In this document: positions 27,121 to 53,797 of the stretch, piece after piece
Layout of the letters: each line of letters opens with the position of its first letter
Numbering within the stretch: position 1 is the stretch's first letter
Origin: a bacterium
GTDB taxonomy: Bacteria; Joyebacterota; Joyebacteria; Joyebacterales; Joyebacteraceae
DNA: 64,000 nucleotides
Assembly: GCA_025774935.1 (NCBI GenBank)
Contig: JALGZK010000003.1
Location: 186,001 to 250,000, forward strand
Direction of reading: 5' to 3'
Notes under the pieces: generated by a model
What the model was told of the DNA's origin: nothing
Databases searched by the model: none
The model's input: only the letters and a program-made list of their open reading frames with translations
Position numbers and translations under genes: made by a program

Positions 27121-29178
27121 CTACTTGAGAAGCATCATCTTGTGACTGTCGTGGAATTCCCCGGCCTGCATCGTGCAGAAGTACACGCCGCTGCCGACGG
27201 ACTCGCCCTTGTCGTTCCTGCCGTCCCACACGATCTCGTGGGCGCCCGGATCGACCGAACCGTCAACGAGCGTTCTCACCAGCCGGCCCGTGACGTCGTA
27301 CACCCTCACCGACACCTGCGACTCGTGCGGCACGCTGAACGCCACCTTCGTCATCGGGTTGAACGGATTCGGGGTGTTGCCGACGAGGCGGAACGTGCGC
27401 GGCACCTCGGGACGGGCTTCCAGATCGTCAAGCTCCGCGTAAAGGGTCTCGTTGTCGACGCCCCTCAAGTCCGCGCTCTCGAATCCGAGCGCGTACTCGT
27501 CCCCAAGCGCACGGAACGTCAGGAGCGCCACTTCGCCTGAACCGCCGATCGTCACATCGGTGCCGAGAACCGCCACGTCCACCTGAACCGTGCCCTCACC
27601 CTCTCCGTACCAGAAGAACACCTGGCCGAGGGGTGACAGCATGTGATCCGAGAGCCTCGCGGACACGAGCTCGAGTTCCGATCCCTCGAATGCCACGAGC
27701 GCGGAGAGTCCCTTCACTTCAGTGGCGTTGCCATCGAGCCTGAGGGCTATCTCGATGTCACCCATCTCCGTGGTGCCAATCTCAGACAGCTCAAGCGACA
27801 GGGCCTTCGTCGACTCGTCCGGCAGGAACGGGACCGGCCGTGGTGCCACTTCGCCGTAGTTCATGGCGAAGATCATCAGATCCTCGAATTGAACTGCGTC
27901 GTCCGGCTCAGGGATCCCGAGGCGGCCGTTGTCGTCCGTAGGACCTACGTCGCACTCCGAGTCGTTGAACCCCACAGGCGGGGCTGCCGCGTAGGTCCCG
28001 CCGAGCTTGTCGATGTCGGCGGCGTTCACGAGGCCGTTGTAGCCCCACGTGCCGAGGGTCGTAGCGACGTCGCCAAGCCAGTAGTTCGTCGCGCGGTCCT
28101 GGCCCGTGCCGGCTGCGATCCCGTAGTTCAGGGCCCAGTCGTACGCGAACGCACTGTAGTAGTGGATGTCGCGCGGCACGATCGAGTGCGTGGTACTCGT
28201 CACCACACCCGTGGCGTCGTACGCCGTGCCGTCCCCGGTCGTCTCGTCGGTCGGGTACGACGGCGCCGCCGTGTCGTAGTACGGGTAGTCGCCCCACGCA
28301 TCGTACTGGACCCTCACCCCGTAGTAGTTCGTGTCGAGACCGGACGGGTCGTCCCAGTCCAGGTCTACCTCCTCGTGTGCAGGAGCAGCGGCGAAACCAG
28401 TGATCGCACCCGGTGCGGTGTTGTCGGCCTCGATGTCGTCGCTGTCGGTCCCCGAGTTGCCGAGCCCGTCAGTCGCCGTGATCGTCACGGTCTTGACGCC
28501 GTCGGCCGTCAGCGTCACGCTCGCGAGAGCCGTCGTCCACGTCGCCACGTTCGCTGAGTAGCTCTCCGCCGCCACAGCCGAACCGCCACCTGCCAGGAGC
28601 CCCGAGAGATCAGCGACGATGTCGGCGGCCGTCAGGCCGTAGTCGTCGGTCACCGTGGCCGTGAGCTCCAGGTTGTCGGTGTCCTTGGCGAAGTCATCCG
28701 TGTGGGCCAGCGTCAGGTTTTCGATGAAGGCCCCGGTCACGACCGGATCCGTGATATCCACCTGGATCTCGCCGTCGTCCTCGAAGAACCCGGTCAAGGG
28801 GTTGTTGTTCTTGTCCCGCACCGCCACGATCGTGAGATCAACAGGACTCGTCCCGAAGGCGACCGCATCGAACCCCAGGGTGAACATGGTCCCCGGGCCC
28901 GTCACGCCGTCGACTCCCCCAAGCAGAGTGCAGTCGATCGTTCTCGTGTTGCCGGTTCCGTAGACGAAGAACTGCGTCGTGCCAGCGTCCGAGAGCAGAG
29001 TGCCCTCCGTGACGCCGGTCAGGGCGACCTTGGCTGCGTCCCAGGTCACGGTCATCGAGTAGCCGTAGAGGAGGCCGCTCCCGCCACCCAGGTAGTTCAC
29101 ATCGATCTCGCCGTCCGGTGTGTTCGGAAGCGACGCCACGTTCAGGATGAGCGGGTCGGGGTCGCAGACGACGTTCCC
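27121..29178 (-). repeat. C-terminal cassette, copy 5
   Basis: About 686 codons from GNVVCDPDPLILN to the stop. Many stretches are near-identical to copy 4 at the DNA level, for example the bases coding for FEDLMIFAMNYGEVAPR. Confidence 0.85.
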
Positions 29179-32100
29179 CGCAAGGAGCGGGACGAACGTC
29201 ACGTAGTCGGATACCGCGTTCCCGAGACCTCCCGGGTTCGACGTCCCGTGGAACGGTCCCGTCGGGTCACCCCACCAGTTGTAGGTCGCGTCGACGGCCG
29301 CCGTCAGGTAGTTGTAAACGCCGAAGGATGCGTTCCCGAAGATGGCGTTGTTGTAGATGTCGATGAGACCCGGCCATCCGTCGTAGAGCGCCACGCCCAT
29401 TCCGCCTGTGTTGTCCCGCAGGAGGTTGTCAAAGACGGCGATGTTCTTGGGGTCGAACGGCGTGTCGGGCGTCGCCTCGTAGTAGCCGTCCCCGTAGTTG
29501 CTGAGGAAGATCCCGTTCATGTTCGCGCTCATGTCGTTCCCGCGAACGTCGATCTCCTGCGATGCATCGATCCAGAGAGCGCTGTAGGTCCCGTCGTGCA
29601 GATCGTTCTCTGCGACCTCGAGCGGCGCCCCCGCCGATGTCATCGACTGGAGACAGATCGAGGCTTGGGCCGTGTTGTAGACCTCGTTGCCCCTGATCTC
29701 GAGCCCCGTGAAGTCGAGAAGAGCCGTGAGGGTGGGGTCGTAGATGCCGAGCGGGTCTGAGGGGTCATACCGCTCGCTCTCGGTTCCGAGGTAGATGCCG
29801 AAGCCTCTCGACCCGTTCGTGTTGTAGATCGTGTTGTCGAGGAGCTTCAGGCCGGAGTAGCCGAAGTTGGCGACGTAGTCGGGCTGGTCGAGGTAGCCCA
29901 TGATGCCGATCTTGCAGTCGCGGATGGTGAATCCCTGGATCGTGACGTCGTCGGCCGCGAGGTCGAAGCCTGGGCTGCCTGCTCCTGGCACAACCTCGGG
30001 ATTCCCGGACCCGATCAGCGCGACCGCCTTGTCCACGCTCACCGACTCGGTGTACGTGCCTGGAAGCACGTTCACCGTGCTCGCGGTAACGAGATCCACG
30101 CCCTCCTGGATCCTGCCACCACCGCCGCCGCCCTGCGGGCTGTCGTCGTCCACCCAGAGCTCAGAGAAGTCCCCGACATAGCCAGGGTCCTGCGCGGCCC
30201 CGCCACCGAGCCACGGGGTGTAGTCGCAGGTCACGCCGCCGTTCGCCTCAGCCTTCACCGCAGCGGCGTCCGTCGACCCCCAGTAGTTCCCGGAGGCGTC
30301 GACCGTCTCGGTCACGGCACCGCCGACCTTGACTCCGAAGTTCGTGTTCCCGCTCAGGTCGTTGTCGGCGATCGTCACCCGCTCCGTGTCGATCACGTGC
30401 TTGTCGACGTTCACGCCGGTGTCGATGCAGTCGCTGAGGTCATTCCCCTCGATGGTGATGTCCTGCCCCTTGATGTTGATGCCGAAGCGGACCTGGCCAT
30501 CGAGGTCGTTGTCCTCGATCGTCACGAACGTCGTCGTGCCCCAGAACGACACCCCATCCTTGTTCCCGGAGAGATCGTTCCCGCTGATCGTGACGTCCGT
30601 GACGTTGCTGCCGCCGCATCCCCGGGAGCCAGTGAACCCGCTCACGACGTTTCCGGTGACGCTCGCGGTCGTCACTCCTGTCATGTAGATGCCCGCCGCG
30701 TCCCCCGCGGGGGTGCCACCCGGTGCGATCGTGTTGTTCGTGATCGTCACGTTTGTGGCGACGTTCGGCTGAACGACGACTCCCGTCTTGTTCACGACCA
30801 TGCGGTTCCTGTTGACGGTCGTGAAGTCGTTGCCCTTGTAGAGAACGCCGATGTACCCGTCGAGGATGTTGTCCTCGATCGTGAGGTTGTCGTCCCAGCA
30901 GCGGACGACGGACTCATCCGAGTAGTTGAACGTCGGACTTCCAAGCACGGTGAAGCCCGCGAGCGAGGCCCCCGTCACGCCGCTCGGGATCTCCACCGCC
31001 ACGTTCGGGTTCGTGACGCCGATCCCGGTGATGTCCACTGTCGACTCGTTCGCGGGAGTAGTCCGGGCGCCGCCGGCCGTCGGGTCAATCCCGTACTGCG
31101 CGCCCCGGAGATCCACAGACGTGCTGAGCGTCAGGCGCTCCGCGTACGTCCCGGCCGCCACTTCGATCACGTCGCCTGGATTCGCTGCGTTGATCGCGGG
31201 CTGGATCGCGAAGAACCACGTGTCCTGGGTGACGTTGTGAACCGGGGCGTTCAAGTCCGCCACCGCGAATCCGTAGTCCTCGTCCCCGATAGACGCGTCG
31301 TTGAACTCGCCACCGTAGTGGATGCCGAAGATCCCGCCACCCAGATCGGTGATCGAGCACTCCTTCAGGCTCAGCCTGTCCGGAGTAAGCGAGGCATCGA
31401 CCTTTGGGAGGAGCGGGCTGCTGTGGTCGTAGAGGAAGGTCCAGGAGCCCGCACCTGCGTTCAGCGTCGCCGACGTGGCGAGCTGGACGCCTGAGTCGTC
31501 CTGCGCGACGAGGAACATCCCGTAGTCGCCGCTCGGGAGGACGGCTATGCCCCCCGAGGGTGTGAATCCGTTGACGACGCCGGACTCCGCGGCAGCAAAC
31601 GCGACGATCTCAGTCGTCCCGTCGGGGGAGTAGTACCTCGCGTCCCCCGCGGCTGCCCCGGAGTTGCAGTATCGGATGTTCCCTCCACCGTCCTGGTACC
31701 AGAAGTGGACCTTTCCGCCGATCGGGTCGTCGTAGACCGCGACGATCCCCGCCCCGTTGTCCGTGTTGAGCCCCAGGTTGCCCTGGCCGACCCACGTGAC
31801 CCCACCGTCGGTGGAGAGGCTGTAGTCGGTGACGGACGGGCAGTTGTTCGAGTACATGATCCAGTTCCCGGCGGACATCTGGTACACGGTCGGATGGCAC
31901 GTCCCTGAGTATCCAGTCAGTACCGTCCCTGTCGCCGGAAACTGATTGTAGTCACCCACCGAGACCACACGAGTGAACGCCGAGCTGTTGTTCCTGTCCT
32001 CGAAGTACATGATGTAAGGATCACCGGCCGTTCCCGCGCCGGTGACGCTCAGGTACCGAATCTCGTATGCCGGGAATGGCCCGGTCAGTGGATTCGCCTG

Positions 32101-32193
32101 CTTGCCGTAGTCTGTGACCGCGTGGGCGGGGGTCGTGCACACGACCAGCGCCACCGCGGCTGCAAGCATGAGGAGGGTTGAGGTGCGCTTCAT
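27121..32193 (-). CDS. Giant secreted protein: N-terminal propeller-like domain, two beta-helices and cohesin/dockerin cassette
   Basis: The protein has 1690 residues; GGAG lies before the ATG at 32193. Residues 1-25 are a signal peptide (TPAHA-VTD). Residues 26-320 resemble a sialidase or GH43-like propeller (YIMYFEDRNN, YSLSTDGGVTWVG, VHFWYQDGGG), but no catalytic acids can be assigned. Residues 325-672 are a beta-helix almost the same as that of the 37723 gene. Residues 690-1005 are a second, different beta-helix. The full cassette runs from 1006: cohesin-like A, Ig-like, FN3-like, dockerin-like (1368-1453), cohesin-like B (1460-1590), sorting domain (1600-1690, NTPNPFNPMT, final MLLK). 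A strong sigma70-like promoter lies 325 bases upstream, and the long leader carries a hairpin element shared with the 37723 gene. Confidence 0.9.
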   Translation of the reverse strand: MKRTSTLLMLAAAVALVVCTTPAHAVTDYGKQANPLTGPFPAYEIRYLSVTGAGTAGDPYIMYFEDRNNSSAFTRVVSVGDYNQFPATGTVLTGYSGTCHPTVYQMSAGNWIMYSNNCPSVTDYSLSTDGGVTWVGQGNLGLNTDNGAGIVAVYDDPIGGKVHFWYQDGGGNIRYCNSGAAAGDARYYSPDGTTEIVAFAAAESGVVNGFTPSGGIAVLPSGDYGMFLVAQDDSGVQLATSATLNAGAGSWTFLYDHSSPLLPKVDASLTPDRLSLKECSITDLGGGIFGIHYGGEFNDASIGDEDYGFAVADLNAPVHNVTQDTWFFAIQPAINAANPGDVIEVAAGTYAERLTLSTSVDLRGAQYGIDPTAGGARTTPANESTVDITGIGVTNPNVAVEIPSGVTGASLAGFTVLGSPTFNYSDESVVRCWDDNLTIEDNILDGYIGVLYKGNDFTTVNRNRMVVNKTGVVVQPNVATNVTITNNTIAPGGTPAGDAAGIYMTGVTTASVTGNVVSGFTGSRGCGGSNVTDVTISGNDLSGNKDGVSFWGTTTFVTIEDNDLDGQVRFGINIKGQDITIEGNDLSDCIDTGVNVDKHVIDTERVTIADNDLSGNTNFGVKVGGAVTETVDASGNYWGSTDAAAVKAEANGGVTCDYTPWLGGGAAQDPGYVGDFSELWVDDDSPQGGGGGGRIQEGVDLVTASTVNVLPGTYTESVSVDKAVALIGSGNPEVVPGAGSPGFDLAADDVTIQGFTIRDCKIGIMGYLDQPDYVANFGYSGLKLLDNTIYNTNGSRGFGIYLGTESERYDPSDPLGIYDPTLTALLDFTGLEIRGNEVYNTAQASICLQSMTSAGAPLEVAENDLHDGTYSALWIDASQEIDVRGNDMSANMNGIFLSNYGDGYYEATPDTPFDPKNIAVFDNLLRDNTGGMGVALYDGWPGLIDIYNNAIFGNASFGVYNYLTAAVDATYNWWGDPTGPFHGTSNPGGLGNAVSDYVTFVPLLAGNVVCDPDPLILNVASLPNTPDGEIDVNYLGGGSGLLYGYSMTVTWDAAKVALTGVTEGTLLSDAGTTQFFVYGTGNTRTIDCTLLGGVDGVTGPGTMFTLGFDAVAFGTSPVDLTIVAVRDKNNNPLTGFFEDDGEIQVDITDPVVTGAFIENLTLAHTDDFAKDTDNLELTATVTDDYGLTAADIVADLSGLLAGGGSAVAAESYSANVATWTTALASVTLTADGVKTVTITATDGLGNSGTDSDDIEADNTAPGAITGFAAAPAHEEVDLDWDDPSGLDTNYYGVRVQYDAWGDYPYYDTAAPSYPTDETTGDGTAYDATGVVTSTTHSIVPRDIHYYSAFAYDWALNYGIAAGTGQDRATNYWLGDVATTLGTWGYNGLVNAADIDKLGGTYAAAPPVGFNDSECDVGPTDDNGRLGIPEPDDAVQFEDLMIFAMNYGEVAPRPVPFLPDESTKALSLELSEIGTTEMGDIEIALRLDGNATEVKGLSALVAFEGSELELVSARLSDHMLSPLGQVFFWYGEGEGTVQVDVAVLGTDVTIGGSGEVALLTFRALGDEYALGFESADLRGVDNETLYAELDDLEARPEVPRTFRLVGNTPNPFNPMTKVAFSVPHESQVSVRVYDVTGRLVRTLVDGSVDPGAHEIVWDGRNDKGESVGSGVYFCTMQAGEFHDSHKMMLLK
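30170..31200 (-). repeat. Beta-helix module shared between giant genes, copy b
   Basis: Long runs, such as those around 30450-30640, differ from 41040-41230 at only a few scattered bases, mostly synonymous. The flanking domains on both sides are different or far less alike. Confidence 0.85.
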
Positions 32194-32378
32194 CTTCTCT
32201 CTCCCCGGCCCTTTCGGCCCGTTTGCTCCCTCAGTTTCACGCCCTCACCAAGTCCTCGGGCGCAGCTCAGTCACAGGCTTCTCTCGGTCCCGCTTGACAC
32301 CTCCTTCACTCGTCCGTATATTGCGCAACGAAGCGTGGGTACGCGCGCCTTCCTCAGGCAACGCGTTCCCCGCTGTCC

Positions 32379-32440
32379 ACGGGCGGCTGGGCCTGGCTGC
32401 GAACCCAATCTCCAGTCGCCCGTTCTCTATTCCTGTGACA
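32379..32440 (-). promoter_or_regulatory. Conserved leader hairpin element, copy 1
   Basis: On the minus strand GTCACAGGAAT is followed by a 12-base arm (ACGGGCGACTGG), a loop containing GATTGG, and the closing arm CCAGCCGCCCGT (11 of 12 pairs). The loop, both arms and the flank match the element at 43147-43203. It starts about 186 bases before the ATG. Confidence 0.6.
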
Positions 32441-32524
32441 TTCGGCGGTGTGCGCTCGGCTGCGAACGGCCCCGCGATCGGCCTCAAGCACCGTCAGAGG
32501 TCGTCCCTCATCCGAGGCACTCTA

Positions 32525-32553
32525 ATGATAGCGCACACTGAGCCGATGGTCAA
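32525..32553 (-). promoter_or_regulatory. Strong sigma70-like promoter for the 27121-32193 gene
   Basis: TTGACC (32548-32553) and TATCAT (32525-32530) each match five of six consensus bases and are 17 bases apart on the minus strand. The predicted start near 32518 gives a leader of about 325 bases. Confidence 0.7.
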
Positions 32554-32682
32554 TGCTGAACACTATGAAAGCGCATCAAATCCACTCTGAATGAGCGACT
32601 GCTCAGTTTTGTCCTCTCTGACAAGCACCGTCGACGCCTGCTGTCATGTATCTCAAGAACTCCCGCTCCGTAGCGAGTCAGA

Positions 32683-32710
32683 CGATAGCCCGGCGCAGGC
32701 CGGGCTATCG
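32683..32710 (-). terminator. Perfect 12-pair hairpin in the intergenic region
   Basis: CGATAGCCCGGC and GCCGGGCTATCG enclose CTGC. It is 233 bases after the stop of the 32943 gene and 130 bases before the promoter of the next unit. It is symmetrical, so it could act on either strand; no U-run. Confidence 0.45.
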
Positions 32711-32942
32711 CGTAGTTCCTGATCTCCATGAGCGCATCGGGGCAGGCCCGGACGAAACTGCAAGCCGGGGGGTCGGAGCAGAAGACGCCCGGGCCTCCCC
32801 ATGGACCATCCCGGAGAGCGGTACGGGAGAGGTCCATTGCGCTGTACGGCTGCGGCGTCATGCCGCGATCTTCTACCCTCCAGCCCGGGCTGTGCGATGC
32901 CGGCCGCCCGCAGTCCCTTGGCCGGGAGGGCTCTCGTTCCTC

Positions 32943-35015
32943 CTACTTCAAGAGCATCATCTTGTGGCTATCGTGGAAGTCGGCCGTCTGCATCGTGCAG
33001 AAGTAGACGCCGCTTCCCACCGACTCGCCGTGATCGCTCCGGCCGTCCCACGCTACCTCGTGGACGCCCGGCTCGACCGTACCGTCAACCAGCGTCCGGA
33101 CCAGACGACCAGTAACGTCGTAGACCCTCACAGAGACCTGAGCCTCGTGCGGGACCGCGAACGCTATCTTGGTCATCGGGTTGAACGGGTTCGGGGTGTT
33201 CCCGACCAGGCGGAACGCCATCGGTACACCAGGCTTCGCCTCGTGCTCCTCGAGGTCCGCGTAGAGATCTTCGTTGTCCGCGCCCCGCAGATCCGCGCTC
33301 ACGAAGTCGAGCGCGTACTCGTCCGCGAGAACCCGGAACGTGAGGATCGCCACGTCGCCTGAGCCGCCGAGCGTCACGCCGGTGCCCAGCACTGCCATGT
33401 CGACCTGGACGGAGCTCTCGTTCCCGCCGTGCCAGAAGAACGTGCGGCCGATCGGCGAGAGCATCTCATCCGAGAGCCTCGCCCCCACGAACTCGACCTC
33501 GTTCGAGTCGAACTCGATCAGCGTCGAGATACCCTTCACTTCGCTGGCGTTCCCCTCGAGCCTGAGAGCGATCTCGACCTCGCCCGCCTCCAACGCCGTC
33601 CGCTCGACGAGCTCGAGCGACAGAGCCTTCGTTGACTCGTCCGGGAGGAGGGGCACAATCCGCGGCGTCACCATCCCGTAGTTCAGAGCGAAGATCATGA
33701 GATCCTCGAACTGTATGGCCGCGTCGGGGAACGGCAGGCCCAGTCTGGAACCGTTCGGGTTCACCGTGGGACCGACGTCGCACTCCGCGTTGTTCCCCGT
33801 CGGGCTCGTGACGAAGTACGTGCCACCGAGCTTGTCGATGTCCGCGTCATTCACGAGGCCGTTATAGCCCCAGACGCCGATCGTAGTCGCGATGTCGCCC
33901 AGCCAGTAGTTGTTAGAGAGGTCGCGGGCGGTCGTCGCAGCGGCTCCGTAGTTCCTGGCGATGTCGTAGCAGAACGCCTGGTAGTAGTAGATGTTCCGCG
34001 GGATGACACCGTCCGTGTACGTCGTCCCGGCGCCGTTGTAGACCTCCGTCCCGGAGGCCTCGGTCGCGGGATAGAACGCACCTACCGCCGGCCACGAGCC
34101 GACGAACGCGGGATAGAGCGGGTAGTCGCCGACGTTCTCGTCTCTCCGAACGGTGACGCCCGCGAGATAGAGATCCGTCCCCATCGTCCAGCTGAGGCCG
34201 CACTCCTCGTGGGCGACGGTTGCGTCGAAGTCGGTGACCGCCGTCGGAGGCGTGTTGTCGGCGATGATCGTGTCGCTGTCCTGCGCCGCGGGGTTCCCGA
34301 TCGGGTCGGTCGCGTCGACCGTCACAGTCACAGTCCCGTCGGCGGGCGTGCAGGCCACGCTCGCGATCGCTGTCGTCCAGGTCGCGACGCTCGCCACGTA
34401 CGTGTCGGGATTCACCGCCGCGCCGCCGCCCAGACCGGAGAGGTCGGCCACGATGTTCGCGACACCGAAGCTCGGGTCGTCATCGGTGACAGTAGCCGTC
34501 ACACGCGCGGTGTCGGTGTCCTTGATGTAGTCGTCGGTGTGCGCGAGGGTCAGGTTCTCGATGAGAGTCGCCGTGATCACCGGTGCCTGGACGTCCACGA
34601 TGAGCTCGCCATCGTCCTCATAGAAGCCGGGGAGCACCGCGTTCGTGTTGTCCCTGACCGAGATGATCGTAACGTCAATCGGGCTCGTGCCCTGCGACAG
34701 CCCCGTGAAGGCGATCGAGAACATCGTCCCGGGACCCGTGACGCCCGGGTTGCTGGCGCCGAGGATCGCGCAATCGACCGTGATCTCATTCGCCCCGGAA
34801 GCGCTCGCCTGGAAGACCGTCGAGCCGGCATCCGACAGGAGCGTTCCTTCCGTCACGCTGCCGGGAGCCGTGCTCGCGAGAGCGCCGTCCCAGGAGAACT
34901 TGATCGAGTACCCGTAGACCATGCCGCCTCCGCCGCCGAGGTAGTTCACGTCCACCGTCTGCGTCGGATTGGCGACCGTCAGGTACTGCGGATCAGGATC
35001 GCACACGATGTTCGC
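32943..35015 (-). repeat. C-terminal cassette, copy 6
   Basis: About 691 codons from ANIVCDPDPQYL to the stop. The cohesin-like A, Ig-like and FN3-like parts follow copy 7 most closely (VACTPADGTVTVTVDATDP region). Confidence 0.85.
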
Positions 35016-37484
35016 CGTGCCCGTCTTCCCGATCCACGGATCGTAGTCGACCTCCGCGGCAGTTCCGACGACCGTGTCGCCGGTGCCGCCGGGATTCCCG
35101 GCGTTCGTCGGGCCGCTGGCGTCACCCCACCAGTTCATCTCGGCGTCGAGGGGACCACCGGTGCCCGAGTCTACCGTCAGACCCCAGTCGGTGTGCCCGC
35201 TGATGGTGTTGAGGTAGATCGAACCCGCAGGAATCGGGTACGTACCGCCAAGGGTGGCCACCCAGATGCCCTGTCCGCAGTTCGTGAGGACATTGTTGTA
35301 GACATTGAGGGTGTTGATGCCCCAGAGCTGAAGGGCCTCGCCCTCGCCCCACGAGCCCGGCTGGACGTCGTTGATGTGGTTCCCGTAGATGTTGACGACG
35401 TCCGCGCGATTGACCTCGAACGCGGCCCACTGGTTGCCGACCTCGGCATTGTTGCCGCCGATGTTGTCGACCGTGTTCCCGTAGATGTTCACGGTGTTCG
35501 TGAAGTCCCCGGAGAACCCGCGGAGGACGACAGAGCCGTTGTTGTCGTGGAAGTAGTTGTCCGCGAAGACGACGTCCTCCATGATGGACCCGTCTCCGCC
35601 GCTCCCGCTGCGCGTGTCGCAGACCGACCAGCCGAGCAGTTCCTTGAACTCACAATCGGTCACGGTGAAGTCGCCGGTCATCTGACCGCCGGAGTAGCCG
35701 TGCCGTCCGGAGGCGAACTGCCCATCGACGATCAAGGTGTCGAAGGTGATGTTGCTGATCGTGCCGAGCGCGCGAATCACCGAGTTACTGGCCGCGGCCC
35801 CCTGGATGTGAAGGCTCGCGACCGTCAGGCCGTCCGTCCCGCCGGCGATCGTCATGCCGCCCGTGATGATCGGGAGGCTGCCGCCAGTGAGCGTTCCGCC
35901 GCTCATCGTCGAGGGGATCGCGACGCTCTCGTTGTATGTCCCCTCCTCGATAGTGACAGTGGAGCCAGCACCCGCAAGGTCGAGGGCGTCTTGGATCGAG
36001 TCGTCGGACCCCCAGTCCATCGGGACCGTCCCGGGTGTCGCCGCGTACCACGGGCTGTAGTCGACGTTCGTTGTGACGTTCACGCCGCCGCCGCGACCCG
36101 AACCGCCTGAGAGCGGAGACGACTGACCGCCCTCGCCGTGCGGAACTACCTCGTCCGTGGCGGCGAACGGAGAGATTGCCCCGTGCGAGGAACCTGACAC
36201 CGGCCTCGGCACTGTCACCGCCGGGCCGTCCGTGGCTCCCCAGTAGTTCTCTTCGGCGTCGACCGTGTTGGAGTAGTTGTTGTAGACACCGAAGTCCCCG
36301 CAGCCGGAGAGGTCGTTGCCGGTGGCGGTCACGTTGACGGTACCGCCGCTTACCTCCACGTACTCGACGATCCCGTCGCCACAGGCGATCGTGTTGTTCG
36401 TGACGGCGGCCGTCATCGTTCCACTCGTCCAGCCGCTGTAGTAGCCGCCGCCCCAGGGATCGACGTCGCTGCCGTACAGATCGACACCGGAGTACGCGCC
36501 GTCGTGGATGTTGCAGTCGTCGACCGTCAGGTCGATCGATGCGCCTGGGTCGCCCAGGTGGACACCGACGCTCCAGTCGCAATCGTCGAGCTCGACGCCG
36601 TCGACCGTGATGACGGGCGTGCCGGGGTGCGTGTAGACCCAGTTCCACTGGGAGTAGTTCACGCCCATCTGGCACTCGTCGACGAGCCCGCCGGTGATGT
36701 CGATGTCACCGCACTCGAAGAAGAGGATGCCCGTCGCGGCCCAGTCGCTGCCGGTGTAGGCGACGCCCGTCACGTTGTTGCCCGTGAGCGAGCCGTCCGC
36801 GCCGTACGAGATCTGGATGCCGTTCCCGGCGTTGTACGGGCTCGGGGCGTTGTCGATGTCATTCCCGTTGACCGTGCAGTCCGCGTCGGGTCCCATGACC
36901 AAGAGCCCGCCCTTCTGGAAGTTCGGAAGGACGTTGTCCGAGAAGTCGACGGTACACGTGCCGGTCGCGCTGTGCGTCGCGGCCACGGAGACCACGCGCT
37001 GCGCCCCGGGGCTCCCGGCGTAGAGCACGTCCTCGATCCGGCAGTCCGTCACCGAGCCGTCGGCGTCGAACATGTGGATGCCGTAGAAGTTGTCCGGACC
37101 GAGCTCGCGGCCGTCGAGCGTCATGTCGGTGATGTTCACCGTGCACGGACCGACGACGCCGATCATCGGATCGACCGTGCGGGCCGTCGCGTTCCACTGC
37201 GTGACCGAGTAGGTCGTCCGGTCGCCCACGTCGACGGCCTCGAGGATCGTCGAGCCGACTCCCGCGCCCACGAGATCGAGGCTCTTGCCGTCGATCTTGA
37301 CCTGTTCTCTGTACGTGCCGGCGGCCACGTGGATCACGTCTCCAGAGGCCGCGGCGGCGTCGACGGCTGCCTGAATCGTCGCATAGGTTCCCGGAACATA
37401 GAGGTCGCCGGCCAGCGCGGGCACCGACACCAGAACCAGGAGGGCCGTCAACAGAGCGAATCCGCACATTCCGTTTGCTCTCAT
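32943..37484 (-). CDS. Giant secreted protein: two beta-helices and cohesin/dockerin cassette
   Basis: The protein has 1513 residues from the ATG at 37484 (GGGAG eight bases upstream, and the hydrophobic signal MCGFALLTALLVLVSVPALA follows at once); the frame from 37547 adds 21 unlikely residues. Residues 25-430 are a beta-helix paralogous to the whole head of 12575-16081 (both have GTYREQ, RELGPDxFYGIH, NxxNFQKG and DPWGGGYY). Residues 475-800 are a second beta-helix with INGNTV-like coils. The cassette follows: cohesin-like A from 824, Ig-like, FN3-like, dockerin-like 1191-1278, cohesin-like B 1283-1412, sorting domain 1424-1513 (NTPNPFNPMT). The insertion of the second helix is the main difference from its paralogue. 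No catalytic set is recognised; a binding role at the surface is inferred. Confidence 0.9.
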   Translation of the reverse strand: MRANGMCGFALLTALLVLVSVPALAGDLYVPGTYATIQAAVDAAAASGDVIHVAAGTYREQVKIDGKSLDLVGAGVGSTILEAVDVGDRTTYSVTQWNATARTVDPMIGVVGPCTVNITDMTLDGRELGPDNFYGIHMFDADGSVTDCRIEDVLYAGSPGAQRVVSVAATHSATGTCTVDFSDNVLPNFQKGGLLVMGPDADCTVNGNDIDNAPSPYNAGNGIQISYGADGSLTGNNVTGVAYTGSDWAATGILFFECGDIDITGGLVDECQMGVNYSQWNWVYTHPGTPVITVDGVELDDCDWSVGVHLGDPGASIDLTVDDCNIHDGAYSGVDLYGSDVDPWGGGYYSGWTSGTMTAAVTNNTIACGDGIVEYVEVSGGTVNVTATGNDLSGCGDFGVYNNYSNTVDAEENYWGATDGPAVTVPRPVSGSSHGAISPFAATDEVVPHGEGGQSSPLSGGSGRGGGVNVTTNVDYSPWYAATPGTVPMDWGSDDSIQDALDLAGAGSTVTIEEGTYNESVAIPSTMSGGTLTGGSLPIITGGMTIAGGTDGLTVASLHIQGAAASNSVIRALGTISNITFDTLIVDGQFASGRHGYSGGQMTGDFTVTDCEFKELLGWSVCDTRSGSGGDGSIMEDVVFADNYFHDNNGSVVLRGFSGDFTNTVNIYGNTVDNIGGNNAEVGNQWAAFEVNRADVVNIYGNHINDVQPGSWGEGEALQLWGINTLNVYNNVLTNCGQGIWVATLGGTYPIPAGSIYLNTISGHTDWGLTVDSGTGGPLDAEMNWWGDASGPTNAGNPGGTGDTVVGTAAEVDYDPWIGKTGTANIVCDPDPQYLTVANPTQTVDVNYLGGGGGMVYGYSIKFSWDGALASTAPGSVTEGTLLSDAGSTVFQASASGANEITVDCAILGASNPGVTGPGTMFSIAFTGLSQGTSPIDVTIISVRDNTNAVLPGFYEDDGELIVDVQAPVITATLIENLTLAHTDDYIKDTDTARVTATVTDDDPSFGVANIVADLSGLGGGAAVNPDTYVASVATWTTAIASVACTPADGTVTVTVDATDPIGNPAAQDSDTIIADNTPPTAVTDFDATVAHEECGLSWTMGTDLYLAGVTVRRDENVGDYPLYPAFVGSWPAVGAFYPATEASGTEVYNGAGTTYTDGVIPRNIYYYQAFCYDIARNYGAAATTARDLSNNYWLGDIATTIGVWGYNGLVNDADIDKLGGTYFVTSPTGNNAECDVGPTVNPNGSRLGLPFPDAAIQFEDLMIFALNYGMVTPRIVPLLPDESTKALSLELVERTALEAGEVEIALRLEGNASEVKGISTLIEFDSNEVEFVGARLSDEMLSPIGRTFFWHGGNESSVQVDMAVLGTGVTLGGSGDVAILTFRVLADEYALDFVSADLRGADNEDLYADLEEHEAKPGVPMAFRLVGNTPNPFNPMTKIAFAVPHEAQVSVRVYDVTGRLVRTLVDGTVEPGVHEVAWDGRSDHGESVGSGVYFCTMQTADFHDSHKMMLLK

Positions 37485-37722
37485 CTTCTCTTCTCCCGCT
37501 GTGCACATCAGGTGAGTGCTACACGCGGTGCGATCAAGCACCGCCAATCCCCGTCCGTCTCTCGTCGGGGGACGTCGCCCTTCAGGGCGGACCTGCGGAC
37601 CTCACATCCTCCCTCCTTTGTGCGAGATCTCCCTGTGCTCCCTTCATCGCTTGGTTCCGTTTCATCGGTGGAGACGGCAGGTCGCCCCGGGAGCCGCAGC
37701 GCACCCGGGGCGACCGTGTCTC
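37485..37722. other. Intergenic region between two giant genes
   Basis: It holds the hairpin at 37680-37715 and a leader without a recognisable promoter. The last 60 bases before the ATG share blocks with the leader of 12575-16081, including TTGATCGC, a CTCAC core and AGCGGGxGAAGA next to the ribosome site. A GCGGTGC / GCACCGC hairpin lies in the same part. Confidence 0.5.
37680..37715 (-). terminator. Perfect 12-pair hairpin after the 37723-42885 gene
   Basis: GGTCGCCCCGGG pairs with CCCGGGGCGACC around a 12-base loop, eight bases after the stop. No U-tract. Confidence 0.5.
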
Positions 37723-39795
37723 TTACTTCAACAGCATCATCTTGTGGCTGTCGTGGAAGTCGGCCGCCTGCATGGTGCAGAAGTAGACGCCGCTCCCGAC
37801 GGAATCACCGCGGTCGTTCCGGCCGTCCCACACGATCTCGTGCTGGCCGGGCTCGACCGTACCGTTCACCAGCGTGCGAACCTCGCGGCCGGTCACGTCA
37901 TAGATCGTGACCGTCACGCGGGACTCGTACGGGACGTTGAAGGCGATCTTCGTCACGGGGTTGAACGGGTTCGGTGAGTTCCCCACGAGACGGAAGGTCG
38001 CCGGAACCTCTGGCCTGGACTCGCAGCCCTCGAGCTCCGCGAAGAGGTCCTCATTCCCGGCGCCCCGGAGATCCGCAGCCTCGAACTCGAGCGCGTACTC
38101 GTCAGCGAGCGCTCTGAACGTCAGGACCGCGATGTCCCCGGAGCCGCCGACCGTCACGTCGGTGCCGAGCACCGCCATGTCGACCTGGACCGAGTTCCCG
38201 TTCGCCGCATGCCAGAAGAAGACCGGAGCGAGAGGTGAGTACATGTCGTCGGAGAGCCTCGCGCTCACGAACTCGAGCTCCGAGGAATCGAATGCGACGA
38301 TCGTCGAGATGCCCTTCACCTCGCCCGCGTTCCCACGCAGGCTCATCGCTACTTCGATCTCGCCGTCATCGGTCACCCCGACCTCCGCGAGCTCGAGCGA
38401 CAGCGCCTTCACTGCCTCATCAGGCAGGAACGGAACGATGCGCGGGCTCACACGGCCGTAGTTCATCGCGAAGATCATCAGGTCCTCGAACTGCACCGCC
38501 GCGTCCGGGAGCGGAAGCCCCAGGCGGTGGCCGTTCGGATGGACCGTAGGACCGACGTCGCACTCGGCGTTGTTGCCGACCGGGTTCGTGGCGAAGTAGG
38601 TTCCTCCGAGCTTGTCGATGTCGGCGTCGTTCACGAGGCCGTTGAAGCCCCAGACGCCGAGCGTCGTAGCAACGTCTCCGAGCCAGTAGTTGTTGGAGAG
38701 GTCGCTCGCCGTCGTGGCAGCGGGACCGTAGTTCCGCGCGATGTCGTAGCAGAACGCCTGGTAGTAGTAGATGTTCCGCGGGACGACCGCGTCGGTCGCG
38801 TTCGCGAGCGGACCGTTGTAGGCCTCGAAGCCCTGGGTCTCGTCGGCGGGGTAGTAGCCGCCGAGCCCTGCCGGCCACCCGGCCACGAAGAGCGGGTAGG
38901 TCGGGTACTCGCCCGCGTTGTCCGAACGTCGTACCGTCACGCCGGCGAGGTAGAGGTCGGTCCCCATGGTCCAGGTGAGGTCGCACTTCTTGTGACCCAC
39001 CGCCGCGTCGAAGGCCGTGACCGCCGTCGGAGGCGTGTTGTCGGCGATGATCGTGTCGCTGTCCTGCGCCGCGGGGTTCCCGATCGGGTCGGTCGCATCG
39101 ACCGTCACGGTCACGGTCCCGTCGGCGGGCGTGCAGGCCACGCTCGCGATCGTGGTCGTCCACGTCGCGACGTTCCCCACGTACGTGTCGGGGTTCACCG
39201 CAGCGCCGCCACCGAGCCCGGACAGATCAGCAACGATGTTCGGAATCCCGAACGTCGGATCGTCGTCCGTGACCGTCGCAGTCACCCGCGCGGTGTCGGT
39301 GTCCTTGATGTAGTCGTCGGTGTGCGCGAGGGTCAGGTTCTCGATCAGGGTGGTCGTGACAACCGGCGCCTGGACGTCGACGATGAGGAGCCCATCATCC
39401 TCGTAGAAGCCACTGAGGGGCTGGTTGTTGTTGTCGCGGACGTTCAGGACCGTGATGTCGACGTCGCTCGTCCCCTGCGAGAGACCTGTGAACTCGACCG
39501 AGAACATCGTTCCCGGTCCCGTCACACCGGCTTCGTCCCCGAGGAGCGCACAGTCGACGGTCACCTCGTTCGCGCCGCTGTTGCCGGCCATGAAGAAGGT
39601 CGTCCCCTCGTCCGACAGGAGCGAGCCCTGCGTGACCTTGACCGCCGCCGAGCTCGCAATCGCGCCGTCCCAGGTGAACTTGACGGAGTAGCCGTACATG
39701 AGGCCGCCACCGCCGCCGAGGTAGTCGACGTCGATCGTCTTCGCGGGACTGGCGACCGTCAGGTACTCGGGATCCGGAACGCACACGATGTTCCC
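37723..39795 (-). repeat. C-terminal cassette, copy 7
   Basis: About 691 codons from GNIVCVPDPEYL to the stop. Its cohesin-like A resembles copy 2 (EYLTVASPxKTIDVxYL), while its downstream Ig-like part is nearest to copy 6, so the copy appears mosaic. Confidence 0.85.
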
Positions 39796-42700
39796 CGTCC
39801 CCGCCTTCCCGACCCACGGATCGAAGAGGACGTTGTCCGAGACCGGGACACCCACCCCGCCGGGATTCAGCGTCGCGTGGAACGGCCCCGTCGCATCGCC
39901 CCACCAGTTCGAGAGACCGTTCGCGACGACCGTCGTGCTCGTGGTGAGCATCCCGTGGCTGTCGTTCCCCGACAGGTCGTTGAAGTTCGCGGTCACGACG
40001 GCCGTGTCGCTGCCGTCGTAGCCGACGTGGATGCCCACCGTGTTCGCGGTGAACGCATTGCTCGTGAGCGTGCCCGCCGTGCCGGGACCGTAGTAGGTGT
40101 CGATCAGGACACCCGCCGACGTCGAGCCATCAGAAGACGCGACCCCGCGGCACTCGGTCACGATGTTCCCAGTGATCGTCGCCACGGCACCGCCACCAAG
40201 CTCGATGCCGTAGTCGAGCCAGTCGCCGACGCCCTTGCCGGTGTAGGTGTTCCCGCTGATCGTCGAGCCGGTGATGCCTGTTCCGAACCCGAAGATCCCG
40301 ATGCGCCCGATGTTCTCGAACGTGTTGCTCGTGACCGTCCAGTTCTGAGAGCCGAAGAACACCAGCGCGACGCCGCTGTAGTGCGGGCCGGACTCGTTGT
40401 AGAGGATGTTCCTCATGTCGCAGTCGTTCATCGCGCCACCGCCGTGGGCGCGGATCCCCTGGTAGATGAGATGGCCCGTACCATCGAGCACCAGATCCTC
40501 GAGCGAGAGGCTGTAGCCCGCCTCCACTAGCCACCACCCGCGCGTGTCGCCCGCTGTGCCCGTGTCCGAGTCGGTCATGATGACGGGCTTGCTCGAGGAG
40601 TCGCCGACGACTGCCACGTCCTTGTCGACGACGATCTGGCCTGCCTCGGTGTAGGTGCCGGGAAGCACGTTCACAGTGCTGCCGGAGACGAGCTTGATGC
40701 CCTCCTCGACGGGACCGTCCGTGCCCGTCTGGGGACTGTCGTCGTCCACGTACAGCGTGGAGAAGTCGCCGGCGTACCCCGGGTTCTGGGCAGTGCCCCC
40801 GCCGAGCCAAGGGGTGTAGTCCGCGCCAACGCCGGCGTTCGCCTCCGCCTGCACCGTGGCCGCATCCGTCGAGCCCCAGTAGTTCGCAGAGGCGTCGACC
40901 GTCTCGACCACCGCCCCGCCGACCTTGACGCCGAAGCTCGTGTTCCCACTCAGGTCGTTGTCCGTGATCGTGACACGCTCGGTGTCGATCACGTGCTTGT
41001 CCACGTTCACACCGGAGTCGCCGCAGCCGCTGAGGTCGTTCCCCTCGATGACGATGTCCTGGCCCTTGATGTTGATGCCGAAGCGGACCTGTCCGTCGAG
41101 GTCGTTGTCCTCGATCGTCACGAACGTCGTCGTCCCCCAGAACGACACGCCGTCCTTGTTCCCGGAGAGGTCGTTCCCGCTGATCGTGATGTCCGTGACG
41201 TTGCTCCCTCCGCAGCCTCGGGAGCCTGTGAAGCCCGTCACGACGTTGCCGGTGACGCTCGCGGTCGTGACACCGGTCATGTAGATGCCTGCCGCGTCGC
41301 CGGCGGGGCCGCCGCCGGGCGTGATCGTGTTGTTCGAGATCGTGATGTTCGTGGTCACGTTCGGCTGGACGATCACACCAGTCTTGTTCACGACCATGCG
41401 GTTTCTGTTGACGGTCGTGAAGTCGTTGCCCTTGTAGAGCACACCGATGTAGCCGTCGAGGATGTTGTCCTCGATCGTGAGGTTGTCGTCCCAGCAGCGG
41501 ATGACGGATTCATCCGAGTAGTTGAAGGTCGGACTGCCGATGACCGTGAATCCGGCGAAGGAGGCTCCTGTGACACCACCTGGGATCTCCACCGCCACGT
41601 TCGGGTTCGTGACGCCAATCCCCGTGATGTCGACGATCGACTCGTCGGCCGGGGTCGTCCGTGCTCCTACGCCGGTCGGATCCACACCGTACTGAGCGCC
41701 GCGGAGGTCCACGGAGGGATTGATCGTCAGCCGTTCGGCGTAGTTCCCCGCCCCAACCTCGATCACGTCGGCCGCGCTCGCTGCGTCGATCGCGTTCTGG
41801 ATGTAGCAGTAGTGGTCGAGTGTGAGGTCCCAGTCGACCGGCAGGAGGTAGACGTTCCCCGTCCCCGAACTGGTCCCACTGGCCTCGGAGCCGTAGAACA
41901 TGTAGACATCTCCGCCGTCCTCGAGCGTCGCCGGCCACATGTCGACCCAGCTCGTGCCGCCGTAGCCCCCGCCCGTTGCTATCTTCGCGGTCGTCTGGTC
42001 GAGTCCGTCGAACCCTGTGATGGACGACGCCGTCCAGTACTTGAGGAACTGCTTCGTGCCGTCCCACGGTGCGAAGAAGAAGACGTAGTCGCTTCCGATC
42101 TTCGTGAGCATCGGATCGCAGTCGAGGTCGAGCGTGCCAGTGATCGTAGCCTTGAGCGTCCACGTCGGCCCCGTGCTGTACTCGTAGACGTAGTACGCGG
42201 GGAGCCCCCAAGAGGTGTAGTAGAGGTAGATGCCGCCACCGTCCACGAAGAACCTCGGCATGCCCTCGTGCGCGACAACAGTGTAGGACGCGCTCCAAGT
42301 CGACCCGTTGTAGGTCGTCACGTCGAGGGCCCCGCCTGTGTTCACGACGAGCCAGATCTCGCCACCGTACACCGTCGCCCACAGATGGGACCCCGCGAAC
42401 GACGTAGCCGCGCCCGGAAGCACGTCCGCCACGCTCCAACTCGTTCCGCCGTCCGTCGTCGTCCACGCCTTGACCTGTGCCCCGTCGCCGCTGTCGACCG
42501 CGAACACCCAGATTGCCCCGCCGTACTCGATGCACGACGTCTGGCCCTGGTAGATCCTGTCCGCCGTGACCGGCATGCTCCCCACGACCTGAGGCGTCGC
42601 GGTCGCGAGCCCCGCCACAGTCGACGCCTTGTTGTAGTAGATCTCGTAGTGGGAGTTGTCGGGGTTGCCTGTTCCGTAGTTCCCCGTGAAGTCGTACGAC

Positions 42701-42885
42701 CGGCCATAGAAGAGCCAGTAGTTGCCACTGCCGTCCTTCAGAACGCTGTTCCCTCTCTCGTAGTACGCGTTCGTCGTGACCTGTGTCGGCTGCGTCACGA
42801 GAAGGTCCGCCGCCCACACAGAACCGGCGGTCACCGTCGATGAAACGACGACGACCGCCGCCAGGATCAGGAGCTTCCTCAACAT
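37723..42885 (-). CDS. Giant secreted protein: N-terminal propeller-like domain, two beta-helices and cohesin/dockerin cassette
   Basis: The protein has 1720 residues with ATG at 42885. Residues 1-25 are a signal peptide (GSVWA-ADL). Residues 26-355 look like a GH43/sialidase-like five-bladed propeller (YWLFYGRSYDFTG, WTTTDGGTSWS, GGIYLYYTSWG, DYVFFFAPWDG); such folds read as glycosidase-like, but the acids cannot be assigned from sequence alone. Residues 360-700 are the shared beta-helix module, and 715-1025 a second unrelated helix. The cassette starts at 1031: cohesin-like A, Ig-like, FN3-like, dockerin-like 1398-1485, cohesin-like B 1490-1620, sorting domain 1630-1720 (NSPNPFNPVT, final MLLK). 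It has the same plan as 27121-32193, with a different propeller and second helix. It has its own promoter and a leader of about 415 bases. Confidence 0.9.
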   Translation of the reverse strand: MLRKLLILAAVVVVSSTVTAGSVWAADLLVTQPTQVTTNAYYERGNSVLKDGSGNYWLFYGRSYDFTGNYGTGNPDNSHYEIYYNKASTVAGLATATPQVVGSMPVTADRIYQGQTSCIEYGGAIWVFAVDSGDGAQVKAWTTTDGGTSWSVADVLPGAATSFAGSHLWATVYGGEIWLVVNTGGALDVTTYNGSTWSASYTVVAHEGMPRFFVDGGGIYLYYTSWGLPAYYVYEYSTGPTWTLKATITGTLDLDCDPMLTKIGSDYVFFFAPWDGTKQFLKYWTASSITGFDGLDQTTAKIATGGGYGGTSWVDMWPATLEDGGDVYMFYGSEASGTSSGTGNVYLLPVDWDLTLDHYCYIQNAIDAASAADVIEVGAGNYAERLTINPSVDLRGAQYGVDPTGVGARTTPADESIVDITGIGVTNPNVAVEIPGGVTGASFAGFTVIGSPTFNYSDESVIRCWDDNLTIEDNILDGYIGVLYKGNDFTTVNRNRMVVNKTGVIVQPNVTTNITISNNTITPGGGPAGDAAGIYMTGVTTASVTGNVVTGFTGSRGCGGSNVTDITISGNDLSGNKDGVSFWGTTTFVTIEDNDLDGQVRFGINIKGQDIVIEGNDLSGCGDSGVNVDKHVIDTERVTITDNDLSGNTSFGVKVGGAVVETVDASANYWGSTDAATVQAEANAGVGADYTPWLGGGTAQNPGYAGDFSTLYVDDDSPQTGTDGPVEEGIKLVSGSTVNVLPGTYTEAGQIVVDKDVAVVGDSSSKPVIMTDSDTGTAGDTRGWWLVEAGYSLSLEDLVLDGTGHLIYQGIRAHGGGAMNDCDMRNILYNESGPHYSGVALVFFGSQNWTVTSNTFENIGRIGIFGFGTGITGSTISGNTYTGKGVGDWLDYGIELGGGAVATITGNIVTECRGVASSDGSTSAGVLIDTYYGPGTAGTLTSNAFTANTVGIHVGYDGSDTAVVTANFNDLSGNDSHGMLTTSTTVVANGLSNWWGDATGPFHATLNPGGVGVPVSDNVLFDPWVGKAGTGNIVCVPDPEYLTVASPAKTIDVDYLGGGGGLMYGYSVKFTWDGAIASSAAVKVTQGSLLSDEGTTFFMAGNSGANEVTVDCALLGDEAGVTGPGTMFSVEFTGLSQGTSDVDITVLNVRDNNNQPLSGFYEDDGLLIVDVQAPVVTTTLIENLTLAHTDDYIKDTDTARVTATVTDDDPTFGIPNIVADLSGLGGGAAVNPDTYVGNVATWTTTIASVACTPADGTVTVTVDATDPIGNPAAQDSDTIIADNTPPTAVTAFDAAVGHKKCDLTWTMGTDLYLAGVTVRRSDNAGEYPTYPLFVAGWPAGLGGYYPADETQGFEAYNGPLANATDAVVPRNIYYYQAFCYDIARNYGPAATTASDLSNNYWLGDVATTLGVWGFNGLVNDADIDKLGGTYFATNPVGNNAECDVGPTVHPNGHRLGLPLPDAAVQFEDLMIFAMNYGRVSPRIVPFLPDEAVKALSLELAEVGVTDDGEIEVAMSLRGNAGEVKGISTIVAFDSSELEFVSARLSDDMYSPLAPVFFWHAANGNSVQVDMAVLGTDVTVGGSGDIAVLTFRALADEYALEFEAADLRGAGNEDLFAELEGCESRPEVPATFRLVGNSPNPFNPVTKIAFNVPYESRVTVTIYDVTGREVRTLVNGTVEPGQHEIVWDGRNDRGDSVGSGVYFCTMQAADFHDSHKMMLLK
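40780..41805 (-). repeat. Beta-helix module shared between giant genes, copy c
   Basis: It encodes AERLTINPSVDLRGAQYG through GGAVVETVDASANYWGS. It is the near-identical partner of copy b; the N-terminal propellers upstream of the two modules share little sequence. Confidence 0.85.
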
Positions 42886-43146
42886 CTGTCACCCCCTCGC
42901 TCTCAGTTCGTCTGCTCTCGGGAGTCGAGTCCCAGAGGTCGGGCGCGGTCCGTCCTGTCCGGTCCTCCGTGACGTCCCCGTTGCTCGGCCAGCAGTTCTC
43001 AGACCGCCACCCACCCTGCGAAGCCCACCACCTCCCCTCGACGGCGAGTCGCCGTCCGTTCCTTGACTGCTCCTCTCCGATGCGTATACTTCCCAATGAG
43101 GGACGGCGACGCCTGGATCCTCACGGACCGGGACTCCCGTCCACAT

Positions 43147-43203
43147 CGGGCGGCTGGGCTGGCCACCAATCCATCACCAGCCGCCCGCTTCCATTCCTGT
43201 CAT
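43147..43203 (-). promoter_or_regulatory. Conserved leader hairpin element, copy 2
   Basis: On the minus strand ATGACAGGAAT leads into CGGGCGGCTGG, a loop with GGATTGG and GGCCAGC, and CCAGCCGCCCG, giving 11 perfect pairs. The arm pairs perfectly here where copy 1 has one A-C mismatch. It starts about 262 bases before the ATG of the 37723 gene. Confidence 0.6.
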
Positions 43204-43305
43204 GCTTTCCCGCTGTACGGATAGGTAGGCTCGCGCGCGGTCCCGCTCTCCCGGTATCGACTGAACGCGTTGCGGTGTACCGGCCGGCGTCTACGCTCAC
43301 CTCAG

Positions 43306-43334
43306 ACTGTACAACATGAGTGTCTTGCAGTCAA
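43306..43334 (-). promoter_or_regulatory. Sigma70-like promoter for the 37723-42885 gene
   Basis: TTGACT (43329-43334, five of six) and TACAGT (43306-43311, four of six) are 17 bases apart on the minus strand. The predicted start is near 43299. Confidence 0.6.
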
Positions 43335-43510
43335 GCCCGAAGGGGTACAAAGCTCACATATTCCGCTCCTTCTGAGCGCACAGTCAGTTTTTCCTGCGAA
43401 TAGAGCCACAGCGCACGCGTTTTGTCATGAATCCTGCTTCATGCTCTTCCACTGAGCGGGAAACCTGCTCGGGCATGGCTAAGTCGCCGCGCGAGCCCAG
43501 ATAACGCCAA

Positions 43511-43533
43511 CGGCCCGGTTCAGAACCGGGCCG
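43511..43533 (-). terminator. Hairpin after the small cohesin-like/sorting gene
   Basis: CGGCCCGGTT and AACCGGGCCG form ten perfect pairs around CTG on the minus strand, followed by TTGGCGTT. It lies 86 bases after the stop at 43619. Confidence 0.55.
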
Positions 43534-52567: not shown

Positions 52568-53797
52568 TCAGGCCTCGCTCTCCCGCTCCTTCATGAGGAT
52601 ACACCCCGTGACGGGACACACAGTCCGGCAGAACCCGCATCCTATGCACTTCTCCTCGTCGACCCCCGGAATCCGCTCGTTTCCGGTCCCCGCGGCATCC
52701 TCCGGGAACTCGATCGCCTGGTGCCCCCCGTCCCGGCACGCGACGATGCAGGCGCCACATCCGACACAGAGGTCCCCGTCGATTGATGCCACGACCTTGT
52801 AGTCGCGAGAGAGCGCCTCGTGGCTCACGACGTTCGGTAGCCCGCGGCCGACAAGATCAGCGGGCGTCCCCAGGCCCTTTTCCTCGAGGTAGTACCCGAG
52901 ACCCTCGATCAGCTCCTCGACGATGTCGTAGCCGTACCGCATGACGGCCGTGCAGACCTGGACGATCCCGGCTCCCGCCAGAAGGAACTCGGCCGCATCC
53001 CTCCAGGTCACGACGCCGCCGACACCGGCCACGGGGATCCCGACGTCCTTCGCGACGTCCGAGACGAACCGGAGCGCGATGGGCTTGATCGCGGGGCCGG
53101 AGTATCCGCCGGCGGTCGACTTCCCGCCGACGTCCGGGATCGGCGCAAAGGTGTCGAGGTCGAAACCGAGGAGGCCCTTCAAGGTGTTGATGCACGTGAT
53201 GCCCGCCGCACCGGCCTCTTTCACCTTCTGCGCGATGGGGCGGATGTCGGTCACGTTCGGCGTCAGCTTGATGAGCACCGGGACGCTCGCAGCCTCCACC
53301 ACCCACTTCGCGCGTTCGTACGTGAGAGCGGCATCCTGGCCGACCGCCGAGCCCATCCCCCGTTCGGGCATGCCGTGGGGGCAGGAGAAGCTGCACTCGA
53401 TCATGTCGGCGCCCGCCTCCTGCACGCGCCGCGTGATCTCCTTCCACTCGTCCTCGGTACCGGCCATCATGCTCACGATCAGCACCTGCTCCTGGTATCG
53501 CTTCTTGAGCTCGGAGACCTCCTGTAGGACTTCCGGAAGATGCCTGTTCGAGATGAGGTCGATGTTCTCGAGGCCGATCAGGTTCTTGTCCTCGTACGCG
53601 AGCCCGGCCATCATCGGCGAGACCAGGTTCACCTCGACGTGCTCGAGGCCGAGCGTCTTGACGACCGCCCCGCCCCAGCCCGCGTCGAAGCCCCGCGCGA
53701 TCATCTCCGCGCTGTCCGTCGGAGGCGCAGCCGCAAGCACGAACGGGTTCGGGAACCTCACGCCGCAGAACTCGATCGAGAGATCGGGCTTCCTCAT
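52568..53797 (-). CDS. preA: NAD-dependent dihydropyrimidine dehydrogenase, subunit PreA
   Basis: The protein has 409 residues, close to E. coli PreA. It reduces uracil or thymine to the dihydro form with electrons from PreT. Residues 1-310 are the FMN-binding barrel of the dihydroorotate-dehydrogenase superfamily; SCPHGMPERGMG places the catalytic cysteine at residue 139, as in mammalian dihydropyrimidine dehydrogenase. GVGGVVTWRDA holds the FMN phosphate. Residues about 338-400 carry two 4Fe-4S motifs, CVGCGACIVAC and CIGCGFCRTVCP. The ATG overlaps the preT stop by four bases (ATGA), so translation is coupled. It is the last gene of its operon. The next pathway enzyme, dihydropyrimidinase, is encoded at 2488-3891, about 49 kb away across the surface-protein array. 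Confidence 0.95.
   Translation of the reverse strand: MRKPDLSIEFCGVRFPNPFVLAAAPPTDSAEMIARGFDAGWGGAVVKTLGLEHVEVNLVSPMMAGLAYEDKNLIGLENIDLISNRHLPEVLQEVSELKKRYQEQVLIVSMMAGTEDEWKEITRRVQEAGADMIECSFSCPHGMPERGMGSAVGQDAALTYERAKWVVEAASVPVLIKLTPNVTDIRPIAQKVKEAGAAGITCINTLKGLLGFDLDTFAPIPDVGGKSTAGGYSGPAIKPIALRFVSDVAKDVGIPVAGVGGVVTWRDAAEFLLAGAGIVQVCTAVMRYGYDIVEELIEGLGYYLEEKGLGTPADLVGRGLPNVVSHEALSRDYKVVASIDGDLCVGCGACIVACRDGGHQAIEFPEDAAGTGNERIPGVDEEKCIGCGFCRTVCPVTGCILMKERESEA

Follow-up and report, generated by a model that had tools for sequence, protein, structure and literature searches.

Two leaders of giant genes share a two-hairpin element

The window (the whole 64,000-nucleotide stretch analysed) contains a tandem array of at least seven giant paralogues on the minus strand (6816–42885), with an N-terminal stretch of about 50–68% identity and FlgD_ig/T9SS-type tails. 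Two operons begin in this region. The first gene of operon A (27121–32193, minus strand) encodes a 1,690-residue secreted giant with β-helix/NosD-like and FlgD_ig regions and a T9SS-type tail, and that of operon B (37723–42885, minus strand) a 1,720-residue secreted giant with an FlgD_ig/T9SS-type tail. Gene 32943–37547 comes next, 175 bp downstream of 37723–42885 and likewise on the minus strand; like the other giants downstream in the window, it has a short gap in front and no RNA element.

An earlier note on this DNA had placed similar hairpins ahead of the ATGs at 32193 (by 186 bases) and 42885 (by 262 bases), and both are present (32380–32422 and 43147–43187). Read on the minus strand, they carry ATGTCACAGGAAT (copy A) and ATGACAGGAAT (copy B), followed by a stem and a loop region with GATTGG and GCCAG. 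The resemblance is not due to chance: when 161 nt of copy B were used as a query, copy A was the sole other strong match in the 3.24-Mb genome (E = 3.7e-5), and exact CGGGCGRCTGG sites form an opposed pair within hairpin distance at only these two places. A fixed-spacing pattern search of the same genome returned chance sites only, because the spacer differs between the copies.

The conserved unit is longer than the earlier note recognized, consisting of a plus-strand promoter, a first hairpin (P2), a linker and a second hairpin (P3), the last being the hairpin originally noted. Copy A has its promoter at 32294–32322 (+, TTGACA-17-TATATT, with identical boxes in a same-genus locus, L052), followed by a predicted RNA at 32329–32435 (+), whose 5′ end is placed about 7 nt after the −10 box and whose 3′ end is placed in a pyrimidine-rich tail after P3. 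P2 spans 32332–32374 (+; basal helix AGCG.GGG / CCC.CGCU, which folds alone here and draws its covariation from the arm swap described below) and P3 spans 32380–32422 (+; CGGGCGGCTGG...CCAGTCGCCCG). Copy B repeats this layout, with a promoter at 43063–43090 (+, TTGACT-16-TATACT), a predicted RNA at 43097–43200 (+, ends likewise estimated), P2 at 43101–43142 (+, basal helix GGACGG/CCGUCC) and P3 at 43147–43187 (+; CGGGCGGCTGG...CCAGCCGCCCG). Covariance model R1 matches 32325–32435 with 83 bits and 43093–43200 with 97 bits, scores that are partly by construction, both copies being in its training set.

Relatives of the element in one family of bacteria

A BLASTN search over 61 genomes found relatives of the element in the same family. 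Model R1, with 108 positions and 13 of the copies as its training set, locates 18 copies. They are spread over 10 of the 20 Candidatus Effluviviaceae genomes examined, usually two per genome; these 20 genomes are all those examined from the phylum Ca. Effluviviacota. Five of the copies are independent finds by the model, namely the left copies in L044, L045, L046 and L047 and one in L163. The covariance search of related genomes that the earlier note had proposed thus yielded further copies, and their stems are kept. None was found in 366 genomes of other lineages (386 searched in all), under strict filters and with few candidates scored per genome, such that weak relatives could be missed.

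The earlier note had seen no known riboswitch core, in agreement with the absence of any Rfam (release 15) match at the gathering threshold in the window. Targeted searches gave sub-threshold matches only, the best for copy B being the pan motif (19 bits against a threshold of 36.2) and COG3860 (16.9 against 42.5), both local and at chance level. The exact P3 pattern occurs in 68 stretches of GTDB genomes, about 54 of them outside the family, and in 12 stretches of viral contigs. The best out-of-family stretches (L083, 30.3 bits; L099, 26.4 bits) lack a P2-like hairpin at the corresponding position and resemble GC-rich palindromes that arose by chance.

A constant hairpin beside a variable one

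The predicted RNA is about 110 nt long and is encoded opposite the giant genes. All 18 copies keep one order: promoter, about 10 nt, P2 of about 45 nt, a 3–6-nt linker (usually CC), P3 and the pyrimidine-rich tail. The tail is U-rich but interrupted and does not make a textbook terminator; it may act as the terminator of the RNA.

P3 has an almost invariant 11-pair stem; its internal loop, which bears AUC, is conserved and its apical loop variable. At the DNA level, every copy carries the near-invariant inverted repeat GGGCGRCTGG-N18..21-CCAGYCGCCC. By inspection, the apical loops of the two copies are clearly different in five of the six two-copy genomes. P2 has diverged widely in sequence, with basal arms that differ by lineage (GGACGG/CCGUCC, GAGCCG/CGGUUC, GAGCGA/UCGCUC, GAGGGACGGG/CUCGUUCCUC and others), yet a hairpin forms in the same place in 18 of 18 copies, each folded alone.

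RNAalifold, run on MAFFT and model alignments, recovered P3 only, as P2 is not alignable by sequence. We therefore tested P2 by single-copy folding and by swapping its arms between lineages, which weakens pairing: swapped arms paired as strongly as the true ones in 65 of 20,000 permutations with all 18 copies and in 120 of 20,000 with 11 representatives, a test that treats the lineages as independent, which is true only in part. The complementary strand gave slightly less good values (225 and 200 of 20,000). It passes as any duplex must, so the test shows structure and not strand. For P3 alone, covariation counts were not above a shuffle control because the stem hardly varies; its support for a strand thus comes from wobble asymmetry, not covariation.

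Two other identities were considered for the element. A small protein-coding ORF was rejected on account of hairpin lengths that differ by single bases between copies, and an integron attC-like recombination site was rejected after a brief look in which no core sites were seen.

Wobble pairs place the RNA opposite the genes

Across the ten inner pairs of P3 in 18 copies, 167 of 180 cells are Watson–Crick and the other 13 are G-U on the plus strand, with no A-C. One pair varies, being G-U in 11 copies, G-C in 4 and A-U in 3. On the minus strand the 13 wobble cells become A-C mismatches, although the changes to G-U have fewer than 13 independent origins. Copy A itself contains such a pair (G-U on plus, A-C on minus), which the earlier note overlooked. 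Folding energies compared with each copy's own shuffles agree, with a mean z of −4.5 for the plus strand against −3.0 for the complement; the plus strand has the lower z in 17 of 18. Together with the plus-strand promoter at near-constant distance, these data point to an RNA on the plus strand, opposite the operon.

The earlier note had assumed the gene strand and looked to compensatory changes to keep the stem there; 13 of 13 non-Watson–Crick cells do the reverse, reading A-C on that strand and G-U on the other. Its proposal of a cis-regulatory RNA of array genes stands in one part, in that a conserved structured RNA is attached to the leaders of array operons, and falls in the other, the strand on which that RNA is carried. 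The same evidence points to a minus-strand operon leader that traverses the element as an antisense target, not as its carrier.

Facing promoters and overlapping leaders

Each element lies between two promoters. Those on the minus strand had been noted before and are indeed of good quality; the equally good plus-strand promoters on the other side had been overlooked. A σ70-type plus-strand motif at near-fixed distance is found in 18 of 18 copies and scores within a few per cent of shuffles or better in 17, the poor one being the right copy of L045 (g5b). The best operon-strand promoter within 330 nt beyond P3 lies 88–135 nt from the P3 end in 18 of 18 copies and is clearly above shuffles in 17, the poor one here being the right copy of L047 (g3b3). 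Both counts come from a single matrix used for the two strands, an approximate Escherichia coli one. When closely related pairs are aligned, both promoters prove to be conserved.

In the window, the facing promoter of operon A is at 32525–32553 (−, TTGACC-17-TATCAT) and that of operon B at 43306–43334 (−, TTGACT-17-TACAGT). Taken with the ATGs, they predict leaders of 325 nt (32194–32518, −) and 414 nt (42886–43299, −), each antisense to the whole RNA. More generally, a facing promoter beyond P3 means that the predicted operon leader holds the complement of the entire RNA. The 5′ halves of the leaders fold on the operon strand, and a scan of this strand in two window regions found no U-tract terminator.

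Two further features flank these loci. A conserved AAACTGA..AGTC / GTTTTC-type motif precedes the operon promoters in several lineages (in the window at about 32585–32610 and 43365–43390) and may be an activator site. Perfect GC-rich inverted repeats without U-tracts lie at gene ends at about 32685–32712 and 43509–43533 (GATAGCCCGGC...GCCGGGCTATC, CGGCCCGGTTC...GAACCGGGCCG) and are kept in the sister species; repeats of this form are possibly the usual terminator type in these bacteria.

The element is a removable module of surface and secretion operons

Wherever the contig is long enough, a gene ends on one side of the RNA and the first gene of the next operon starts on the other, both on the strand opposite to the RNA. 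Its targets by position are operons of secreted giants with FlgD_ig/Por tails or a secretin cluster. Pfam and NCBIfam searches of the adjacent genes identified FlgD_ig, Por tail, β-helix and secretin, and no SusC. In genera g3–g5 the left copy stands in front of a homologous giant, as blastp shows in L046 and L043 (elsewhere the sequence range examined cuts the gene), and the right copy in front of a secretin-containing cluster, beside preA-preT genes. Between the two RNA copies of these genera lies the secretin cluster with unnamed neighbours (L045 4431–10028, L043 6266–11807, L046 10000–15525). The preA-preT-like genes (dihydropyrimidine dehydrogenase type), which in the window occupy 52568–55461 (−), are stable neighbours of the locus across the family.

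Homologues of the giant N terminus (E ≤ 1e-30) occur in 7 of 10 genomes with the RNA versus 0 of 10 without it (Fisher p = 0.003, with relatedness ignored and some RNA-less genomes incomplete). In two genomes that have preA and lack the RNA, an unrelated gene adjoins preA.

A larger secretin operon as the fixed target was rejected, since some orthologues lack the RNA. In G014 (g4), the secretin-operon orthologue (L193, G014:C330, 600–850) has a promoter (TTGACG-17-TATTCT) and the upstream motif but no RNA module. In the window's own genome, the orthologue of the secretin cluster (G000:C2:280419–285865) lies about 36 kb past the window end, again without the RNA. The RNA is thus a removable module, and operons can do without it; the G014 operon, with promoter and without RNA, is a natural control.

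A probable antisense controller of operon leaders

With moderate confidence, we read the element as a cis-antisense small RNA with its own promoter, facing the leaders of giant and secretin operons and probably controlling them, with a constant P3 and variable, copy-specific parts. The contrast between variable P2 and apical loops and a constant P3 stem suggests parts for specificity on a shared platform. Several observations count against this reading. The tail after P3 is no textbook terminator, and orthologous secretin operons do without the RNA. The P3 stem is almost invariant, though pure cis-antisense pairing needs no sequence constraint, and this points to a partner acting in trans.

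A rather unlikely but serious alternative takes this last observation further, proposing a trans-acting or protein-sequestering RNA in which P3 binds a protein or another RNA and the overlap with the leader is incidental. A stem that is near-invariant over copies and genera beside an unalignable P2 speaks for such an RNA, as do its own promoter and the two copies in most genomes. Position speaks against it: the element is always found ahead of an operon's first gene, with a facing promoter within a narrow range of distances, which a free trans gene would not need, and it tracks the giant genes across genomes.

We consider it improbable that the element works on the minus strand, as a riboswitch-like or protein-binding part of the leader with the plus-strand promoter secondary. 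The predicted leader does include the element, which a well conserved promoter precedes, and the complement of the element folds too (mean z −3.0), but on that strand 13 stem cells in the 18 copies turn A-C, the plus-strand promoter keeps a fixed spacing to the element, Rfam offers no match, and no terminator or ribosome-site switch is visible beside it. A DNA operator, in which a shared regulator binds the GGGCGRCTGG inverted repeat and the facing promoters provide transcriptional interference only, would fit the near-invariant half-sites of every copy but is very improbable, because their spacing varies by single bases, their changes obey one-strand RNA pairing (13 G-U, 0 A-C; 3 A-U versus 4 G-C at the same pair) and the P2 hairpin, kept in all copies, is left unexplained.

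For the favoured cis-antisense reading, we start from what the sequence gives directly (promoter motifs, fold, strand, overlap and first-gene position) and infer transcription, termination, pairing and the sign of regulation as follows. The σ70-type promoter would drive an RNA of about 110 nt from the strand opposite the operon, while the operon mRNA would start with a leader containing its full complement. Pairing would begin at the P2 and P3 loops and then extend, and would lower operon expression because leader folding, elongation or stability is blocked; the two polymerases would also collide, which would assist repression. Through the variable loops and P2, each of the two copies in a genome would remain specific to its own operon, and the constant P3 stem would serve as a shared platform for protein binding, termination or stability. 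A broader idea, which we advance as a tentative possibility, is a phylum-private family of regulatory RNAs that combines a constant P3 with freely evolving P2 and apical loops, giving each surface or secretion operon its own antisense controller and all of them one shared trans-acting partner.

Relation to known antisense RNAs

This is a previously undescribed predicted small RNA of seep bacteria, whose candidate phylum is little studied and represented by assembled genomes alone; the searched passages of the phylum's genome paper (PMC11323493) contain no mention of a small RNA. A family of regulatory RNAs in such a phylum would offer a handle on the control of very large secreted proteins, which must be costly to make. 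It is also a clean case in which wobble strand asymmetry and facing promoters overturn the strand that would naturally be assumed. Orthologous operons with and without the RNA form an ordered natural series in which the contribution of an antisense leader RNA can be tested.

We place the RNA under neither of two known systems, because susC is not its target and no attenuator was found. Antisense transcription attenuators of the pT181 type set a structured antisense RNA against a structured leader (PMC3753616). The Effluviviacota loci share that arrangement, and pairing is predicted to start loop to loop as it does there; they differ in that no leader terminator/antiterminator pair was identified and in that the RNA is chromosomal and linked to operons, not to plasmid replication.

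The DonS RNAs of Bacteroides polysaccharide utilization loci are cis-antisense RNAs of 78–128 nt, several per genome, divergent to a susC homologue (PMC7366714). Unlike them, the Effluviviacota RNA faces secreted giants and a secretin cluster instead of SusC, overlaps the leader well upstream of the ATG, and belongs to loci that keep a facing promoter at near-fixed distance and a near-invariant hairpin stem between copies. The phyla are different, and the likeness is one of layout only, with no sequence kinship claimed: both RNAs are of similar length and organization, lie on the opposite strand at the start of outer-membrane or surface operons, and have several members per genome.
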